Shown one piece after another: positions 23,276-41,254 of a stretch of 64,000 nucleotides of DNA (position 1 is the stretch's first letter; every line of letters starts with the position of its first letter). Origin of the DNA: Lutibacter sp. A64 (GTDB taxonomy: Bacteria; Bacteroidota; Bacteroidia; Flavobacteriales; Flavobacteriaceae); contig NZ_CP092487.1 in the NCBI RefSeq assembly GCF_022429565.1, positions 2,498,001 to 2,562,000 on the forward strand, written 5' to 3'. The notes beneath the pieces are model-generated. The model was not told the origin of the DNA. It worked only from the letters and a program-made list of their open reading frames with translations, and searched no databases. The translations under genes and the position numbers were made by a program.

Positions 23276-23302
23276 CCGACCCTTAATTTAAATAGTATTA
23301 TT

Positions 23303-29308: not shown

Positions 29309-29340
29309 TTGATTTCTAAATATTAAATTCAATATCTTTG
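29309..29340 (+). promoter_or_regulatory. thiL promoter (near-leaderless)
   Basis: TTG (29309-29311), 21 nt, TATCTTTG (29333-29340), an exact -7 consensus. The start codon is only four bases beyond, so the transcript begins at or next to the ATG. Confidence 0.7.
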
Positions 29341-31000: not shown

Positions 31001-31086
31001 AAAAAAAAGACACTCAAATTAATGAGTGCCATTTTAAATGTTTTCACAACGGAATAATCCTTATTGTGAATTGCTTTCTGATTTGT
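31001..31086 (-). ncRNA. tracrRNA of the type II-C CRISPR-Cas system
   Basis: About 86 nt on the minus strand. The anti-repeat (31064-31086) pairs with the first 23 nt of the crRNA repeat: 15 bp, one A-A mismatch, then 7 bp. Next comes a small nexus-type hairpin (GGATTATTCC). The 3' end is a stem CACTC / GAGTG followed by eight T residues, which is an intrinsic terminator. A -7 box TATATTTG (31091-31098) places the 5' end within a few bases of the anti-repeat. It is transcribed away from cas9, in the cas9-upstream gap. Tracr identity is well supported by pairing and terminator; exact ends are inferred. Confidence 0.88.
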
Positions 31087-31090
31087 AATT

Positions 31091-31098
31091 CAAATATA
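31091..31098 (-). promoter_or_regulatory. -7 box of the tracrRNA
   Basis: TATATTTG in minus orientation, exact TAnnTTTG. The nearest upstream TTG is 28 nt away, longer than at other promoters here, so the -33 element is weak or absent. Confidence 0.5.
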
Positions 31099-31258: not shown

Positions 31259-34200
31259 ATGAAAAAAATATTAGGCTTAGATTTAGGGACTAACTCTATT
31301 GGTTGGTCATTATTACAAACAGATTTTAACAAAAAAGAAGGAAGTATATTAGGTTTAGGAAGTAGAATAATTCCAATGAGCCAAGATGTATTAGGGAAAT
31401 TTGATTCAGGAGTTTCTATTTCTCAAACAGCTGAAAGAACTGGCTATAGAGGTGTGCGTAGGCTGCTAGAACGCAATATGTTAAGGCGAGAACGACTACA
31501 CAGAGTTTTACATGTTTTAGATTTTTTACCAAAACATTATGCAGATTCAATAGATTTTGAAAAACATTTTGGGCAATTTAAAAATAATACAGAAGAAAAG
31601 TTGAATTATCGCAAAAATTCAGCAGGTAAACACGACTTTATTTTTATGGATTCTTTTAATGAAATGGTTAAAGAATTTGAAGAAAATGGAGTTAAAATAA
31701 AAATACCTTATGATTGGACACTCTACTATTTACGTAAAAAAGCATTGTCCAAAAAAATAACTAAAGAAGAATTAGCTTGGATTATTCTTAACTTCAACCA
31801 AAAAAGAGGTTATTATCAATTAAGAGGAGAGGAAGAAGAAATTATTGAAGGAAAAACAAAGGAGTTTATTGCTTTAAAAGTAAAAGAACTGGTAGCTACT
31901 GGTGAGGTAATAAAAAAAACTGGAGATAAATTATATGATGTTATTTTTGAAAATGGTTGGAAATATGATAAGCAAATTGTCAAAAAAGAAAGTTGGATAA
32001 ACAAAACGAAGGAATTTATTGTAACAAGTACCATTAAGAAAGATGGTAATATAAAAAGAACATTTAAAGCTGTAGATTCTGAACAGGATTGGATCGCCAT
32101 AAAGACAAAAACAGAACAAGATATTGCAAAAGCAAATACAACTGTTGGTCAATACATTTATGATACTTTATTACAAAACCCAACACAAAAGATAAGAGGT
32201 AAATTAGTAAAAACCATTGAACGTAAATTTTATAAAGAAGAATTTCAACAAATACTAAAAACCCAAATTACAAAACATCCCGAATTACAAGATAGAAAAC
32301 TATATGCAGCTTGCATAAATGAGCTCTATCCAAGAAATGAAGCACATCAAAACAACATTAAAGATAAAGGGTTTGAATATCTTTTTATGGATGATATTAT
32401 ATTTTATCAAAGACCTTTAAAAAGCAAAAAATCTACCATATCGGGTTGTACATACGAAACAAGAAGGTATAAGAAATCAATTATTGATAAATTAACCAAG
32501 GAGGAGAAACAAGTTTGGGTAAATGAACCTGTCAAGGCAATACCTAAATCACATCCTTTATTTCAAGAGTTTAGATTATGGCAATTTTTACAGAATTTAA
32601 AAATATATAAAATTGAAGGGAAAGAAGATATAGATATAACAACAGAATTATTAAAAACAGAAGATGATTGGGTTGTCTTATTTGATTTTTTAAATGATAA
32701 AAAAGAAATAGAGCAACATCAATTATTAAAATATTTTAGTGATTTAAAACTGATTCCAAAACAAAAAAAAGATGATAAAAATTATCGATGGAATTATGTT
32801 GAAGATAAAAAATATCCTTGTAATGAAACTAAAGCTCAATTTATTTCAAGACTTAAAAAAGTAAAAGGTATTAATGTTAATACTTTTTTAACTCCAGAAA
32901 TGGAATATAAGTTATGGCACATTATATATTCTGTAACAGACAAGGTAGAGTTTGAGCGAGCAATTGAAAACTTTGCCAAAAAACATAATCTAGATCAAGA
33001 CTCTTTTGAAAAAAACTTTAAAAAGTTTCCACCATATAAATCTGATTATGGAGCGTATTCGGTAAAAGCAATAAACAAGTTAATACCTTTAATGCGTAGA
33101 GGAAAATATTGGGATAAAAGTGTTATTTCAGAAAAAGTAATAAACAATATTAACAATATAATGGAGCGTGTAAATGCCCTAAAACTCAAAGTAAACTATT
33201 CTAAAAAAGATTTGAATACAGCTTTACTTGAAGTTGTAGATGATGATATTTCAACCCAGTTAGTGAAAAGTTTTATCCCTTTTAAAAACAAAAATCATTA
33301 TACGGGTTTAAATACTTATCAAGCTTGTTATGCTGTTTATGAAAGGCACTCTGAAGCAAGTGATTTAGCGCAATGGAGAATTCCAGAAGATATTACACAA
33401 TATTTAATCAATTTTAAGCAGCATAGTTTAAGAAACCCTATTGTAGAACAAGTAGTTACAGAAACGTTACGCACAGTACGTGATATTTGGTTGTATTATG
33501 GAAATGGTAATGAAAATTTCTTTGATGAAATTCACATTGAGTTAGGAAGAGAAATGAAAAATCCAGCAGATAAACGTAAAAGAATATCTGCTCAAATTTC
33601 TGAAAATGAAAATACAAATCAACGTATTAAAGCTATTTTAAAAGAACTTAAAGAGGATGGTGTTTCAGATATAAAGCCATACTCTCCAAGTCAACAAGAA
33701 ATTTTAAAAATTTATGAAGAAGGTGTTTATCAAAGTGTTGATATTTCTGATGAGATTGAGAAAATAAGAAAAAACACAGCTCCTTCAAAAGCTGAAATTA
33801 GCAAATATAAATTGTGGTTAGAACAAGGATATATTTCACCATATACAGGACAAACAATACCTTTAAGCAAGTTATTTACACACCAATATGAAATTGAGCA
33901 TGTGATTCCACAATCTAGGTATTTTGACAACTCTTTAAATAATAAGGTTATTTGTGAAAGCGAAATAAATCAAGATAAAAGTAATATGACTGCTTATGAG
34001 TACATACTTCAAAAGGGAGGTAGTATTGTTGAAGGCATTAAAATATTAAGTAAAGAGCAGTACCAAAATCATTGCGAGAACTATTTTAAAAAGAATAGAA
34101 CCAAACTTAAAAACTTATTAAGTGAAGAGGTTCCTGAAGGATTTATTAACAGACAACTAAACGACAGTCGCTACATAAGTACGTTAATTAAAGGCTTGTT

Positions 34201-35866
34201 AAGTAATTTGGTAAGAGAAGATAACGAAAAAGAAGTCACCTCTAAACATATAGTACCAGTTACAGGTGCTATTACTTCAAAATTAAAACAAGATTGGGGA
34301 TTAAATGACAAATGGAATGAGCTGGTCTTACCAAGATTTTTACGTCTAAATAAATTAACTAACACCAATAATTTTACAACTAAGAACACAAATGGAGTTA
34401 TAATTCCAACAGTACCTGATGAGCTTTCAAAAGGATTTAATAAAAAACGAATCGATCATAGACACCACGCTTTAGATGCATTAGTAATTGCTTGTTGCAC
34501 AAAAAAACACACAAATTATTTAGGAGCTTTAAATGCCGAAAATAAAAATTATGGTTTACGTGATGCATTATTAATAAAAAGCAAGGAAGGGCATTATACC
34601 AAACATTTTTTAATGCCTTGGAAGGGGTTTACTTCAGATGCTAAAGCACATTTAGAAAAAATTGTTATTAGTTTTAAAAAGAATACACGTGTTATTAATA
34701 AAACGAATAACAAAACTATGCAATGGGTAAAAAAAGAAGGAAATTGGAAAAAGCAGTTAGTACCACAAACTAAAGGTAATAATTGGGCCATACGAAAACC
34801 AATGCACAAAGAAACAGTATCTGGAAAAGTACTGTTAAAAAGAGAAAAGGGATTGGTGAGTTTCAATTTGGCGATTGCAAATTATGAAATGATTGTAAAT
34901 AAAAGCATTAAAAATAAGATTAAGAGTGCTTTTAATTTGTTTGAAAATGATGTAAAAAAAGTAAAGGCACATTTTAAAAATAATCCTATAATAGTAGATG
35001 GCAAAGCAGTCAATAAAATAGCTGTATATGAAAATATAGAAGCCACAGCTACACGTACTGCTTTAACTGATAAATTTACACGTAAACACTTAGAAAGTGT
35101 TACAGATACAGGAATTCAAAAAATATTAGAAAATCATATAAAAAATTATATTGATGATACTGGAAAAGAAAAATTCGATGTTGCTTTTTCTCCAGAAGGA
35201 GTAGAAGAATTAAATAAAAACATTGTTGAATTAAATGGAAACAAAAAACACCAACCAATTTATAAAGTGAGACTCTCTGAAGTAGGAAATAAATTTAATG
35301 TTGGTTTAAGAGGAAATAAAAAAGATAAATATGTAGAAGCTGCTAAAGGCACGAACCTCTTTTTTGCCATATACCAAGACGAAGAAGGGAATAGAAAATA
35401 CGAAACTATCCCATTAAATGAGGTAATAGAACACCAAAAACAAGTGGCTCACTTACCTAAAAGTGAACGCACAGAAATACCTATAAAAAATATGTTAGGG
35501 ACTAAGGGAAAAGAACAGCCTGTAAAGTTTTTATTCTCACTCTCTCCAAACGATTTGGTGTATGTACCAACAATTGAAGAACTGGAAAAACCCAATTCGG
35601 TTAATTTTGATAAGTTAAGTAAGGAACAAATTAAAAGGATTTATAAAATGGTAAGTTGTACAGGTGTTGAATGTCATTTTATCCCTAATCAAATAGCCAG
35701 TGAAATACAGAAAAATGAAAATGGTACAAATAGTAAAAATGAGCGTATTCAAGATTTTTTCGATGAAAAAACTATTTTTGATATAAAAATGAAGCCGATA
35801 ATGATAAAAAATCAGTGTTGGAAACTTAAAATTGATCGACTGGGGAATCTAGCACTAGCAAAATAA
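31259..35866 (+). CDS. cas9: CRISPR-associated endonuclease Cas9, type II-C
   Basis: 1535 aa, RNA-guided DNA endonuclease. RuvC-I is at the N terminus (ILGLDLGTNSIGWSL, Asp8), followed by the Arg-rich bridge helix (GYRGVRRLLERNMLRRERLH). RuvC-II has IHIELGREM with Glu761; the HNH domain has QYEIEHVIPQS with His881; RuvC-III has RIDHRHHALDALV with His1070 and Asp1073. All catalytic residues are therefore intact. The remaining C-terminal 450 residues form the PAM-interacting part. At 1535 aa it is much longer than the compact II-C enzymes of about 1000-1100 aa and is near the size of other large Bacteroidota Cas9s. No csn2 or cas4 follows, hence type II-C. Confidence 0.97.
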   Translation: MKKILGLDLGTNSIGWSLLQTDFNKKEGSILGLGSRIIPMSQDVLGKFDSGVSISQTAERTGYRGVRRLLERNMLRRERLHRVLHVLDFLPKHYADSIDFEKHFGQFKNNTEEKLNYRKNSAGKHDFIFMDSFNEMVKEFEENGVKIKIPYDWTLYYLRKKALSKKITKEELAWIILNFNQKRGYYQLRGEEEEIIEGKTKEFIALKVKELVATGEVIKKTGDKLYDVIFENGWKYDKQIVKKESWINKTKEFIVTSTIKKDGNIKRTFKAVDSEQDWIAIKTKTEQDIAKANTTVGQYIYDTLLQNPTQKIRGKLVKTIERKFYKEEFQQILKTQITKHPELQDRKLYAACINELYPRNEAHQNNIKDKGFEYLFMDDIIFYQRPLKSKKSTISGCTYETRRYKKSIIDKLTKEEKQVWVNEPVKAIPKSHPLFQEFRLWQFLQNLKIYKIEGKEDIDITTELLKTEDDWVVLFDFLNDKKEIEQHQLLKYFSDLKLIPKQKKDDKNYRWNYVEDKKYPCNETKAQFISRLKKVKGINVNTFLTPEMEYKLWHIIYSVTDKVEFERAIENFAKKHNLDQDSFEKNFKKFPPYKSDYGAYSVKAINKLIPLMRRGKYWDKSVISEKVINNINNIMERVNALKLKVNYSKKDLNTALLEVVDDDISTQLVKSFIPFKNKNHYTGLNTYQACYAVYERHSEASDLAQWRIPEDITQYLINFKQHSLRNPIVEQVVTETLRTVRDIWLYYGNGNENFFDEIHIELGREMKNPADKRKRISAQISENENTNQRIKAILKELKEDGVSDIKPYSPSQQEILKIYEEGVYQSVDISDEIEKIRKNTAPSKAEISKYKLWLEQGYISPYTGQTIPLSKLFTHQYEIEHVIPQSRYFDNSLNNKVICESEINQDKSNMTAYEYILQKGGSIVEGIKILSKEQYQNHCENYFKKNRTKLKNLLSEEVPEGFINRQLNDSRYISTLIKGLLSNLVREDNEKEVTSKHIVPVTGAITSKLKQDWGLNDKWNELVLPRFLRLNKLTNTNNFTTKNTNGVIIPTVPDELSKGFNKKRIDHRHHALDALVIACCTKKHTNYLGALNAENKNYGLRDALLIKSKEGHYTKHFLMPWKGFTSDAKAHLEKIVISFKKNTRVINKTNNKTMQWVKKEGNWKKQLVPQTKGNNWAIRKPMHKETVSGKVLLKREKGLVSFNLAIANYEMIVNKSIKNKIKSAFNLFENDVKKVKAHFKNNPIIVDGKAVNKIAVYENIEATATRTALTDKFTRKHLESVTDTGIQKILENHIKNYIDDTGKEKFDVAFSPEGVEELNKNIVELNGNKKHQPIYKVRLSEVGNKFNVGLRGNKKDKYVEAAKGTNLFFAIYQDEEGNRKYETIPLNEVIEHQKQVAHLPKSERTEIPIKNMLGTKGKEQPVKFLFSLSPNDLVYVPTIEELEKPNSVNFDKLSKEQIKRIYKMVSCTGVECHFIPNQIASEIQKNENGTNSKNERIQDFFDEKTIFDIKMKPIMIKNQCWKLKIDRLGNLALAK

Positions 35867-35952: not shown

Positions 35953-36849
35953 ATGATAAAAAGAACGCTGTTTTTTAGTAATCCAGCTTATTTAAGCACC
36001 AAAAACAATCAATTAGTTGTTAAATTTCCTGATTCAGAAAAAAAACAAAAAACAATACCAATTGAAGATATTGGTATGTTAGTATTAGAGAATCAGCAAA
36101 TCACTATTACTAATGGCTTGTTATCTAAATTAATAAATAATAAAGCTGCAATTATAAATTGCAATGAGTTTCATATGCCTATTAGCTTATTACAACCCTT
36201 AGTTGGGCATAGTGAACAGGCAGAACGATTTCGAAATCAATTAAATGCCAGTATTCCATTAAAAAAGAATTTATGGCAACAAACCATCAATGCTAAAATC
36301 ACAAATCAAGGGCATGTTTTAGAAGAGCTAAATATTCCAGCTCGTAAATTATTCAAATGGGCAAATGATGTTAAAAGTGGAGATTCCGAAAATCATGAGA
36401 GTAGAGCTGCTGTTTATTATTGGAAACATTTTTTTGGACTAAATGATTTCACAAGAAATCAAGATGGTATTGCACCCAATAATTTATTAAACTATGGGTA
36501 TGCCATATTAAGAGGTATTACCGCAAGGGCATTGATCAGTTCGGGAATGTTACCAAGCGTAGGTATTTTTCATAAAAACAAATACAACGCCTATTGCTTA
36601 GCCGATGATATTATGGAGCCTTATAGAGTATATGTAGACGTATTAGTTAATGACATAGTTCAGCGTAAAGCAGATATCACAGAATTAACTACAACCTTAA
36701 AAATGGAATTGTTAAGGTTTCCAACTATAGATGTTTATATAGATGGTAAAAACAGTCCTTTAACAATCGCAATGAGTAGAACAACAAATAGCTTATACAA
36801 ATGTTTTTTAGGAGAAAGTAGAAAAATTGTATATCCATTATATAAATAA
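35953..36849 (+). CDS. cas1: CRISPR integrase Cas1, type II
   Basis: 298 aa; with Cas2 it inserts new spacers. The metal-binding residues are visible: Glu in ENHESRAAVYYW, His in VGIFHKNKYNAY and Asp in LADDIMEPYRVYVD. The start MIKRTLFFSNPAYL is the common type II Cas1 opening. It begins 86 nt after cas9 and 33 nt before cas2 and is transcribed with them. Confidence 0.96.
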   Translation: MIKRTLFFSNPAYLSTKNNQLVVKFPDSEKKQKTIPIEDIGMLVLENQQITITNGLLSKLINNKAAIINCNEFHMPISLLQPLVGHSEQAERFRNQLNASIPLKKNLWQQTINAKITNQGHVLEELNIPARKLFKWANDVKSGDSENHESRAAVYYWKHFFGLNDFTRNQDGIAPNNLLNYGYAILRGITARALISSGMLPSVGIFHKNKYNAYCLADDIMEPYRVYVDVLVNDIVQRKADITELTTTLKMELLRFPTIDVYIDGKNSPLTIAMSRTTNSLYKCFLGESRKIVYPLYK

Positions 36850-36876: not shown

Positions 36877-37224
<348 letters not shown>

Positions 37225-37332
37225 AATTTAAAAACGCATTAAGTTTAATAAAGTTAATGTGGAATAGGAATATATTTTAATTTCTAGTAGATTACTTAAC
37301 TTGCAGGTTATTAGATTTTTAGAGTCTAATAC
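37225..37332. other. cas2-proximal flank of the array (candidate leader)
   Basis: 108 nt, about 75% A+T, between the cas2 stop and the first repeat. It carries a hairpin (ATTAGA at 37310-37315, TCTAAT at 37325-37330) two bases before the first repeat. Since the opposite end of the array has the degenerate repeat, this side is probably where new spacers enter. Confidence 0.55.
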
Positions 37333-40300
37333 CCTGCGAATGCTAAGTAAAAATACAAATCTGAAAGCAATTCACAACGAATATTTCTCTTGATACGCGA
37401 ACAGATACCTGCGAATGCTAAGTAAAAATACAAATCTGAAAGCAATTCACAACCGTGCGCTGTTAATACTCTTTCATTAGGTTCCTGCGAATGCTAAGTA
37501 AAAATACAAATCTGAAAGCAATTCACAACGTGTTTCATCAAAGTATTTTTTTAATTTGCCTGCGAATGCTAAGTAAAAATACAAATCTGAAAGCAATTCA
37601 CAACAAGTTTTATCTATAGAAAGTTTTATTTGTTCCTGCGAATGCTAAGTAAAAATACAAATCTGAAAGCAATTCACAACCGTATCGTCTTAATTTTATA
37701 GCAATACGGCCTGCGAATGCTAAGTAAAAATACAAATCTGAAAGCAATTCACAACCGTGTTTTAATTATTAAAGTATCGTTAACACCTGCGAATGCTAAG
37801 TAAAAATACAAATCTGAAAGCAATTCACAACTAAATGGTTGTTTTGCCATTTCAACTAAATCCTGCGAATGCTAAGTAAAAATACAAATCTGAAAGCAAT
37901 TCACAACTTTAAATCATTTAGGTAGAATTCGTAGTATCCTGCGAATGCTAAGTAAAAATACAAATCTGAAAGCAATTCACAACATAAAGTAATTTGCTTT
38001 TACATAGGCTTTTCCTGCGAATGCTAAGTAAAAATACAAATCTGAAAGCAATTCACAACTTGTAATTGATATTGCAGATTTACACATTACCTGCGAATGC
38101 TAAGTAAAAATACAAATCTGAAAGCAATTCACAACGGTGTGTTTCTTTGTTTAACTCATTTGAAACCTGCGAATGCTAAGTAAAAATACAAATCTGAAAG
38201 CAATTCACAACTACGGCTTCTAATTGTATTATTATACCTACCTGCGAATGCTAAGTAAAAATACAAATCTGAAAGCAATTCACAACACTGATCCTGCTCC
38301 TTGCTTTTTAGCAGCACCTGCGAATGCTAAGTAAAAATACAAATCTGAAAGCAATTCACAACAAAACGGAAATATTTCTTATTTTTAACAGACCTGCGAA
38401 TGCTAAGTAAAAATACAAATCTGAAAGCAATTCACAACGAGTTAGCAGTATTGTATATGGATGAGTTGCCTGCGAATGCTAAGTAAAAATACAAATCTGA
38501 AAGCAATTCACAACACAGATCGCTATCGCTTTTACAACAACGTCCTGCGAATGCTAAGTAAAAATACAAATCTGAAAGCAATTCACAACAGAACCAGCTG
38601 TTATCTTGCTCTCTTTCAACCTGCGAATGCTAAGTAAAAATACAAATCTGAAAGCAATTCACAACAGTTTCTAATTAGGAAATTTAACACATTTTCCTGC
38701 GAATGCTAAGTAAAAATACAAATCTGAAAGCAATTCACAACTCCATATTCAATACCAATCAATATTTGATTCCTGCGAATGCTAAGTAAAAATACAAATC
38801 TGAAAGCAATTCACAACAAAGATGATAATGTAAACAAATATTTAAACCTGCGAATGCTAAGTAAAAATACAAATCTGAAAGCAATTCACAACAAGTCAAA
38901 AGCCATATCAGGAATATAATTCCTGCGAATGCTAAGTAAAAATACAAATCTGAAAGCAATTCACAACTAAACTTTGACGCTCACTTTCAAATGTTAACCT
39001 GCGAATGCTAAGTAAAAATACAAATCTGAAAGCAATTCACAACGCTATTTCTTCTAAAGATGTGTTTTTGAAACCTGCGAATGCTAAGTAAAAATACAAA
39101 TCTGAAAGCAATTCACAACTAATACATCTAGTAGATTAAAAATTACAACCTGCGAATGCTAAGTAAAAATACAAATCTGAAAGCAATTCACAACAAGCAC
39201 AATTTTTATACATTCCTTTTTTAACCTGCGAATGCTAAGTAAAAATACAAATCTGAAAGCAATTCACAACATAATATCTCACTTCCATTTTTCCAATATC
39301 CTGCGAATGCTAAGTAAAAATACAAATCTGAAAGCAATTCACAACCCTGTGCTGTGATAAGTCTTGCTTATTCAACCTGCGAATGCTAAGTAAAAATACA
39401 AATCTGAAAGCAATTCACAACAAGCACAATTTTTATACATTCCTTTTTTAACCTGCGAATGCTAAGTAAAAATACAAATCTGAAAGCAATTCACAACATA
39501 ATATCTCACTTCCATTTTTCCAATATCCTGCGAATGCTAAGTAAAAATACAAATCTGAAAGCAATTCACAACAAGTTATTGACTTATATCTAACACACTT
39601 TCCTGCGAATGCTAAGTAAAAATACAAATCTGAAAGCAATTCACAACTATGAAACAACGGATTAATTATGTGGTTTGCCTGCGAATGCTAAGTAAAAATA
39701 CAAATCTGAAAGCAATTCACAACCCTCTTCTTCTGTTATCAATTCTTGCGCTTCCTGCGAATGCTAAGTAAAAATACAAATCTGAAAGCAATTCACAACA
39801 AGCGATTGACAATATATTTATTATGACTGCCTGCGAATGCTAAGTAAAAATACAAATCTGAAAGCAATTCACAACGGTATTCTTTTGCTAACTTTTCGCA
39901 AACACCTGCGAATGCTAAGTAAAAATACAAATCTGAAAGCAATTCACAACCGTGCGCTGTTAATACTCTTTCATTAGGTTCCTGCGAATGCTAAGTAAAA
40001 ATACAAATCTGAAAGCAATTCACAACTAGAGACTTAAATTAACATCACCCCATCTACCTGCGAATGCTAAGTAAAAATACAAATCTGAAAGCAATTCACA
40101 ACCCAACGAGCACAGGAGGTACAAACACTATTCCTGCGAATGCTAAGTAAAAATACAAATCTGAAAGCAATTCACAACATAATCAAGTAGAAAGCTACGC
40201 TAAAACAGCCTGCGAATGCTAAGTAAAAATACAAATCTGAAAGCAATTCACAACCTCCCAGTGATTTAATATATTATAGTCTCCCCTGCGAATGCTAAGT

Positions 40301-40938
40301 AAAAATACAAATCTGAAAGCAATTCACAACTACTGCTTATACTGAATATTTACCAATTATCCTGCGAATGCTAAGTAAAAATACAAATCTGAAAGCAATT
40401 CACAACCAATTAATACCTTTCCATTATAATCGTCATCCTGCGAATGCTAAGTAAAAATACAAATCTGAAAGCAATTCACAACTGATATTTTATTATTGTA
40501 TTCTTTGCATAACCTGCGAATGCTAAGTAAAAATACAAATCTGAAAGCAATTCACAACGTGCTTTTAATTTAGCACGTCCCATTAACCCCTGCGAATGCT
40601 AAGTAAAAATACAAATCTGAAAGCAATTCACAACACACCATTCTTTTATATTTTCAAGTCCTTGCCTGCGAATGCTAAGTAAAAATACAAATCTGAAAGC
40701 AATTCACAACAGCTTTTACGAGTTATCACCGAATGACCTTCCTGCGAATGCTAAGTAAAAATACAAATCTGAAAGCAATTCACAACCAGTATAGAATAAT
40801 AGCATTACCTCGCCCACCTGCGAATGCTAAGTAAAAATACAAATCTGAAAGCAATTCACAACACTGTATGGCATCCGTTGGTAGTAGACGGACCTGCGAA
40901 TGCTAAGTAAAAATACAAATCTGAAAGCAAAGCCAACA
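37333..40938 (-). CRISPR. CRISPR array, 48 repeats of 46 bp, 47 spacers
   Basis: On the plus strand the repeat starts CCTGCGAATGCTAAG and ends AAGCAATTCACAAC; in crRNA sense (minus strand) it starts GTTGTGAATTGCTTTC, the usual type II-C start in Bacteroidota. Spacers are 29-30 nt, units 75-76 nt, and all internal repeats look identical. The last repeat (40893-40938) is degenerate in its final 8 bases. Spacer 2 (37454-37483) is identical to spacer 35 (39951-39980); spacers 25 and 26 recur as 28 and 29. Minus-strand transcription is inferred from the anti-repeat of the tracrRNA. The repeat carries a promoter-like TTG-N19-TATTTTTA. Confidence 0.98.
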
Positions 40939-41034: not shown

Positions 41035-41072
41035 AAAAAACTCTTGAAAATCAAAAGATTAACAAGAGTTTT
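41035..41072 (-). terminator. Terminator after the two tRNA genes
   Basis: On the minus strand AAAACTCTTG pairs with CAAGAGTTTT and the 3' side runs into a T-tract. It lies immediately beyond the tRNA-Leu 3' end and separates the tRNA transcript from the CRISPR array, which is read in the same direction. Confidence 0.75.
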
Positions 41073-41074
41073 AG

Positions 41075-41160
41075 TACTCGAGATGGGACTTGAACCCATA
41101 CGGACATTACTGTCCACTGGATTTTAAGTCCAGCGTGTCTACCAATTCCACCACTCGAGC
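41075..41160 (-). tRNA. tRNA-Leu (anticodon TAA)
   Basis: 86-nt long-variable-arm tRNA. The acceptor is GCTCGAG paired with CTCGAGT (one G-U), the T arm is GGGTTCAAGTCCC, the anticodon arm is CTGGACTTAAAATCCAG with anticodon TAA, and a long variable arm follows, as expected for Leu. No CCA is encoded. It is the second gene after tRNA-Gly. Confidence 0.95.
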
Positions 41161-41182
41161 ATTGGTATTTTATATGTTGTAG

Positions 41183-41254
41183 AGCGAAAGACGGGATTTG
41201 AACCCGCGACCCTCACCTTGGCAAGGTGATGCTCTACCCCTGAGCTACTTTCGC
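41183..41254 (-). tRNA. tRNA-Gly (anticodon GCC)
   Basis: 72 nt. Acceptor GCGAAAG / CTTTCGC, D arm AGCTCAGGGGTAGAGC, anticodon stem CACCTTGGCAAGGTG with GCC, T arm GGGTTCAAATCCC. No CCA encoded. It precedes tRNA-Leu by 22 nt and has a strong promoter upstream. Confidence 0.96.

Follow-up and report, generated by a model that had tools for sequence, protein, structure and literature searches.

The CRISPR locus and its direction of reading

The window analysed here is a stretch of 64,000 nucleotides (nt) from Lutibacter sp. A64 (contig NZ_CP092487.1, positions 2,498,001 to 2,562,000 of the forward strand), and it contains a type II-C locus of clustered regularly interspaced short palindromic repeats (CRISPR), whose 46-nt repeats appear to carry a promoter-like element for the CRISPR RNA (crRNA). 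The genes cas9, cas1 and cas2 all lie on the plus strand with scores over their NCBIfam cut-offs, and the locus has the following parts:

31001..31086, minus strand: predicted trans-activating CRISPR RNA (tracrRNA) with an anti-repeat, hairpins and, before a run of U, a terminator hairpin; its ends are likewise predicted
31091..31098, minus strand: TATATTTG, a -7 box of consensus sequence shortly before the anti-repeat, part of the predicted tracrRNA promoter
31259..35866, plus strand: cas9, 1535 amino acids (aa), TIGR01865 at 422.6 bits (cut-off 100)
35953..36849, plus strand: cas1, type II Cas1 model TIGR03639 at 298.9 bits (cut-off 120)
36883..37224, plus strand: cas2, TIGR01573 at 73.4 bits (cut-off 24.5)
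37225..37332, no strand assigned: putative leader, judged by its position between cas2 and the first repeat at the crRNA-3' end of the array
37333..40938, minus strand (crRNA sense): CRISPR array; the 46-nt repeat is present in 47 exact copies and one degenerate copy, and the spacers measure 29-30 nt

Among open reading frames (ORFs) of at least 90 aa on the plus strand between cas9 and the array, only cas1 and cas2 and no fourth adaptation gene were found; together with the predicted, anti-repeat-bearing tracrRNA near the cas genes this is the composition of a type II-C system. The exact repeat copies span 37333 to 40862, with the degenerate copy at 40893-40938, and a genome-wide search for repeat positions 1-31 (up to 3 mismatches) returned 47 places, all within this array. 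Three spacers are present twice, two of these adjacent (37454-39980), so that a segment of the array has probably been duplicated. The leader holds an inverted repeat, ATTAGA...TCTAAT, that directly adjoins the first repeat (37310-37330, by eye). Rfam models matched two tRNAs in the region, CRISPR-DR50 on the opposite strand and below its gathering score, and two weak microRNA families; a plasmid search with the array DNA gave no match, and the closest named relative found was a metagenome-assembled genome of Lutibacter, with 82% identity in the best Cas9 segment.

The anti-repeat upstream of cas9 (31064-31087) is identical to the repeat at 23 of 24 positions and pairs with repeat positions 2-25 with one mismatch. 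Given this predicted anatomy, the crRNA sense is the minus strand and the leader beside cas2 lies at the 3' end of the transcript. The anatomy thus supports a reading that enters the array at its degenerate end and proceeds to the leader and cas2, against the direction of the cas genes, and the same direction is a trait of type II-C systems with repeat-borne promoters.

The promoter-like box in the repeats of the window and its relatives

In crRNA sense, 47 of the 48 repeats show TTG at positions 2-4, followed after 19 nt (N19) by TATTTTTA at positions 24-31; the earlier note had described this arrangement, and it proved exact in all 47 intact copies. It had also stated that the degenerate terminal repeat retains TTG-N18-TATTTTTA, which is so in the window copy, where the TTG is shifted by one. 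The elements, the first three given for the leader-proximal repeat, are:

37348..37355, minus strand: -7-type box TATTTTTA, repeat positions 24-31; in every repeat at start +15 to +22
37375..37377, minus strand: TTG, candidate -33 element, repeat positions 2-4, N19 from the box and inside the tracrRNA-pairing part
37343..37343, minus strand: predicted transcription start at repeat position 36, derived from the placement of the sigmaA box at -12 to -5 in Flavobacterium psychrophilum
40893..40938, minus strand: degenerate crRNA-5' terminal repeat, changed only in positions 1-8, with the box intact at 40908-40915

A motif of the host promoter type is therefore found at a fixed place in the repeat, with TATTTTTA matching five of the six fixed bases of the sigmaA consensus TAnnTTTG and differing in the last. 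The N19 spacing falls within the approximately 18-21 nt from the box at which a -33 TTG is expected, but the TTG may instead serve tracrRNA pairing, and as it lies inside the pairing part its invariance proves nothing.

Whilst this match in a single window of 30% GC could be due to chance, the box exceeds chance expectation across relatives. Cas9 loci were collected from the family (397 genomes, 83 over the cut-off) and from the phylum (395 genomes, 65 over the cut-off); 142 stretches were fetched, leaving out a few fragments and genomes already fetched, and arrays were present in 109 of them. With a length filter applied and the window added, the arrays numbered 64 in the long class and 45 in the short (36-nt) class. 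A second set drew on 595 named loci, of which the best 80 were taken; 55 of these had arrays, 13 of them with a known repeat, and both sets together hold 101 distinct long repeats. An exact TAnnTTTR begins at repeat positions 18-29 in 67 of these 101, compared to 3.8 expected and a maximum of 12 in 500 shuffles, and in none of the 101 on the antisense strand. The distance from TTG to box is N18-20 in 63 of the 67 repeats with an exact box (24% in shuffles), and bases 3-4 of the box vary among the long repeats. The comparison with other II-C arrays that the earlier note had proposed thus returns the same spacing, and its claim of a promoter-like -7 box in each repeat is supported by the copies in the window and by the relatives alike. 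Pairing with the tracrRNA does not hold the box in place, since in 81 of 95 matching loci (105 examined; query cut at 32 nt) the match to the anti-repeat extends no further than repeat position 25. When oriented by the tracrRNA-pairing 5' part, 61 of 62 long-class loci have cas9 on the crRNA-3' side and on the opposite strand.

In case of the 36-nt class, where orientation is less sure as the anti-repeat matches lie elsewhere, an exact TAnnTTTR was found in 4 of 31 distinct repeats, and our main claim is limited to the long class. Many 36-nt II-C repeats end in TACATT, TAGATT or GATATT, 19 nt past a TTG at positions 9-11 (for example L117, L118 and L121; by eye), and it is possible that such ends are truncated -7 boxes completed by the spacer, closer to the layout in Neisseria. 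Control arrays of a non-type-II kind, a status assigned from their repeats and weak cas2 scores, carried the box on neither strand in the few available (0 of 6 arrays in 8 stretches).

Within the named set, TAnnTTTG is the form in 6 of 10 Bacteroidales loci and TAnnTTTA in 21 of 29 Flavobacteriales loci, a suggestive association of the last box base with the host. In the Cas9 tree, lineages of hosts from outside the class (L147, L149, L167) are nested among Flavobacteriaceae, which suggests that the Cas9 locus was transferred between hosts while the repeat box follows the host. A first test with independent pairs (5.4 versus 0.1 pairs) included L139, L147 and L176, called TTTA outside the allowed place, and is not relied on; single-linkage clustering merged the repeats into just 4 groups and was abandoned.

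Terminal repeats, host promoters and alternative explanations

The crRNA-5' terminal repeat has no spacer before it, so its pairing part is unused and only its service to the following spacer can be selected. Of the 64 long-class loci, 53 were usable: two with fewer than four repeats were excluded, and in nine more the terminal repeat fell at the edge of the stretch. Defined as at least 3 changes in positions 1-19, degeneration was seen in 27 of the 53, with a mean of 9.1 changes in these 19 positions and 0.48 in the about 27 beyond. The box was unchanged in 25 of the 27; by eye, one exception is altered only at a free box base (L103) and the other is a mis-set box call (L167). A second terminal set of 42 further named loci (40 distinct long repeats and the 36-nt L232) gave 27 readable ends, 11 of them degenerate, with mean changes of 11.3 in the first part and 1.82 in the rest, a mean raised by L232, which fits poorly at both ends and was retained in the count. 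The leader-side repeat was unchanged in 60 of 62 loci in the first set and in 40 of 42 in the second. In our reading, this pattern reflects selection for some role upstream of the spacer, one that would need positions 20-46 although not necessarily the TTG.

Decay restricted to the outer side could also be the neutral outcome of recombination with inner repeats and as such uninformative on function. Such decay is common at the outer end of terminal repeats in CRISPR arrays, and the changes do form a gradient from the outside, the last one within the first 30 positions falling anywhere from 4 to 26. However, crossover or mutation free of constraint would be expected to affect the inner half too, which is at odds with the low mean past position 19; the 36-nt class behaves likewise, with 73 of 81 changes in positions 1-14 (39 loci), and we regard a purely neutral origin as quite unlikely.

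The earlier note had stated that unrelated genes of the window carry TTG-N17-22-TAnnTTTG, and such sites are present at ctaB (TTG-N19-TATCTTTG, box end 41414, 54 nt before an ATG), at thiL (TTG-N21-box at 29340) and, on the minus strand, at a tRNA-Leu/Gly pair (TTG-N18-box, 41304), as well as at an ORF near 23300 (N21 and N22 sites). The scan gave 16 matches in the 64 kb, most without a long ORF start within 160 nt, so that the pattern alone yields many false positives. In a 464 kb sample of the same genome, with the array and the tracrRNA region masked, the 175 regions upstream of genes contained TTG-N18-21-TAnnTTTG 9 times compared to 1.8 expected, a five-fold enrichment. Two other counts were set aside: an upstream-region count over the family loci, which apparently also took in tracrRNA promoters running antisense through the region upstream of cas9 and gave way to counts within the same genome and a direct analysis of the tracrRNA genes, and a sigma70-type promoter scan of the region (27 sites versus 18.8 in shuffles), uninformative for this phylum.

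Several observations weigh against a promoter in the repeat. The form ending in A, TTG-N18-21-TAnnTTTA, is at background upstream of genes of the same genome (7 versus 6.1 expected), and whole-genome counts, covering 28 of 100 genomes searched, give 9995 against a control of 9894 for the TTTA form and 7791 against 5573 for the TTTG form; the mismatch in the last base, correctly stated in the earlier note, is hence not a trivial one, and the repeat of the window taken alone is a doubtful promoter. Retention of the TTG in degenerate terminal repeats, true of the window, does not hold as a general rule: it is missing at N17-22 in 16 of the 27 and present in 11, compared to 16 of 81 upstream control windows. 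The TTG is at most partly retained and lies in the pairing part, so that it cannot bear the weight first given to it, and with only 11 of 27 kept it is the -7 box that forms the conserved core. No exact box occurs in 34 of the 101 long repeats, 9 of them two mismatches off, including Ignavibacteriales and Sphingobacteriales; TAnnTTAG is found in many of the 34, and TTTCTTTG in several of those from outside the class. The repeats are related by descent, so that the shuffle tests overstate significance, and the tree-based test of last base against host was not significant in the second set (4.2 versus 0.9 pairs, median p 0.375). Finally, 32 of 95 loci have no TAnnTTTR at the corresponding place of the tracrRNA gene, and a weak dyad symmetry overlaps the box in the repeats. 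As a side observation, in one family member of the whole-genome count (G023, locus L108), TTG-N19/20-TAnnTTTG reaches 6.9 times the control, far above the 27 others, and the repeat there carries the consensus TAGTTTTG.

The final A is nevertheless found at the tracrRNA genes of these hosts. At 8-18 nt before the anti-repeat, the 95 loci show TAnnTTTG 43 times, TAnnTTTA 20 times, TAnnTTTC 4 times and TAnnTTTT once, compared to 0-5 for the G form (mean 0.9) and 0-6 for the A form (mean 1.5) in 11 further windows of the same width out to 139 nt. Both endings thus appear to be used at CRISPR RNA genes, and TAnnTTTA at 20 of 95 tracrRNA genes rescues the repeat box in spite of the background level of this form elsewhere. 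As a separate observation, 10 of 63 loci contain the strict form of a dyad, TTACGG-N3-5-CCGTAA, which precedes the tracrRNA -7 box at a constant distance of 21-23 nt and is centred near -41 like an activator site (loci including L045, L101, L103, L143, L156 and L160); when up to one mismatch is allowed, 10 genomes have 6-14 such sites each, compared to 3-30 for the reversed control pattern, and the dyad is absent at the window's own tracrRNA.

Positions 20-46, box included, might be kept for a different task, such as an RNA hairpin, a signal for 5' processing or a DNA motif for integration by Cas1-Cas2. TAnnTTTA is partly palindromic, several repeats have inverted repeats at this place (for example CCTAATTTTAGG in L110), the dyad symmetry in 44 distinct 46-nt repeats stands above column shuffles (z 4.0 for i+j=53, 3.6 for i+j=55), and the window repeat folds weakly end to end (z -1.8). 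Yet pairing outside the box is poor (positions 23-32 in 17 of 44, 22-33 in 11 of 44), and the register of the hairpin shifts while the letters of the box stay constant (L044 and L156, by eye). Spacer integration acts at the leader end, whereas retention is observed at the far end, and the same box stands at tracrRNA genes, to which a repeat function does not apply; such a task as the reason for retention is therefore, in our view, highly unlikely.

A single promoter beyond the degenerate end could instead yield a long pre-crRNA that RNase III would cleave where it is paired with the tracrRNA, with the box as a by-product of an AT-rich repeat. Two features lie upstream of the array in its direction of reading:

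41037..41072, minus strand: intrinsic-terminator-like hairpin followed by a U run, -14.7 kcal/mol, z -6.1, between the tRNA pair and the array (missed by a separate region scan with a loop limit of 8)
41074..41254, minus strand: tRNA-Leu(taa) and tRNA-Gly(gcc), oriented towards the array

A single upstream promoter is the usual mode in type II-A systems, and it would agree with the background frequency of the final-A box; there are also weak minus-strand boxes upstream of the array, such as TAGTTTTC (40979) with a TTG 23 nt before it. However, the 242 nt upstream of the array hold no TAnnTTTR on the reading strand, and the hairpin makes it unlikely that read-through from the tRNA genes feeds the array. 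One outside start would leave the newest spacers up to 3.5 kb away, and it explains neither the retention of the box in degenerate terminal repeats nor the one spacing seen in 63 of 67 exact-box repeats, so that we consider this arrangement rather unlikely.

Proposed mechanism and comparison with known systems

On the evidence of sequence comparison, we consider it likely that each repeat of the window carries a promoter core of the Bacteroidota type and that each spacer can be transcribed separately, with initiation at the box and the start position both predicted. RNA polymerase with the primary sigma factor would recognise the -7 box TATTTTTA, placed just past the tracrRNA-pairing stretch, and would initiate near repeat position 36, 11 nt before the spacer, as follows from the -12 to -5 placement in F. 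psychrophilum. Each transcript would then consist of a repeat tag of about 11 nt, a spacer of 29-30 nt and the next repeat, the first 20-25 nt of which would pair with the tracrRNA for presumed processing. With starts inside the repeats and reading towards the leader, the newest spacers would be transcribed without reliance on a start at a distance of 3.5 kb. Most long repeats of the examined relatives carry such an apparent promoter core as well, so that their spacers can probably be read out separately, and a repeat promoter may account for repeats about ten bases longer than usual. In a more far-reaching form, to which we give about even chances, the 46-48 nt repeats of Bacteroidota II-C systems would be long since the box of this phylum cannot fit at the repeat end as in Neisseria: placed after the pairing part, it would push the start into the repeat and give the crRNA a constant 11-nt 5' tag, the terminal repeat would be a bare promoter, and the box in Flavobacteriales, one step below consensus (TTTA or TTAG), would perhaps limit the strength of dozens of promoters in tandem.

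Repeat-borne promoters are established in the type II-C systems of Neisseria and Campylobacter, and Zhang et al. (2013) reportedly described them for the type II-C array of Neisseria meningitidis. Neisseria resembles the window in its type, in a promoter element per repeat and in separate short crRNAs, proven there and proposed here. It differs in that a sigma70-type extended -10 box ends the 36-nt repeat and the RNA starts in the spacer, whereas the window has a TAnnTTTR-type box in the middle of a 46-nt repeat and a predicted start about 11 nt before the spacer. The Neisseria promoters are also cited in PMC10309648 and PMC7038990.

Hoikkala et al. (2021) proposed for the II-C system of Flavobacterium columnare a repeat-encoded TTG promoter 33 bp upstream of each spacer, with array reads (8 only) running towards the leader and variable end (PMC8092290). 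Proposal and direction agree with the window, whilst the repeat is of 36 nt and the proposal, as set out in the passages at hand, rests on TTG with no named -7 box, that is, on the part more often lost from long-class terminal repeats. In case of Fp2Cas9 of F. psychrophilum, a TTG-based promoter element is likewise claimed in each repeat and RNA sequencing shows that the array is transcribed; TAnnTTTG is named for the cas9 promoter, but in that portion of the text is not assigned to the repeat, and starts are not mapped (PMC10309648). The flavobacterial form, offered in the earlier note as its own inference, had in its TTG version thus already been proposed in these two papers, while the placement of the -7 box was not found in print: in the open-licence literature we found no report of a TAnnTTTG-type -7 box in a repeat or of evidence from terminal repeats. 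The box resembles that of the sigmaA promoters of Bacteroidota, in which TAnnTTTG spans -12 to -5 in F. psychrophilum (PMC9723704) and the -33 element of sigmaA/sigmaABfr is weak and was not found in F. johnsoniae (PMC7366714), and differs by the A for G that prevails in Flavobacteriales repeats.

Repeats of up to 48 bp are stated to occur only in II-C systems, especially in Bacteroidetes (PMC5704556, citing Chylinski 2014), with no explanation in the part of that paper at hand; a promoter in the repeat would, if true, provide the reason. It predicts defined start sites and shows a way in which spacers newly added beside the leader could be transcribed, and decay of terminal repeats offers a general tool for mapping which part of a repeat serves the adjacent spacer. 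CRISPR1 of Riemerella anatipestifer is like the window in its 47-nt repeat, a leader beside cas2 and the anti-repeat TGAAAGCAATTCACAA, and unlike it in that its authors report no potential repeat promoter and predict leader promoters, implying the opposite reading (PMC5006608). Our reading would thus supply an orientation rule for Bacteroidota II-C arrays, which are read in opposite directions in print (PMC5006608 versus PMC8092290).

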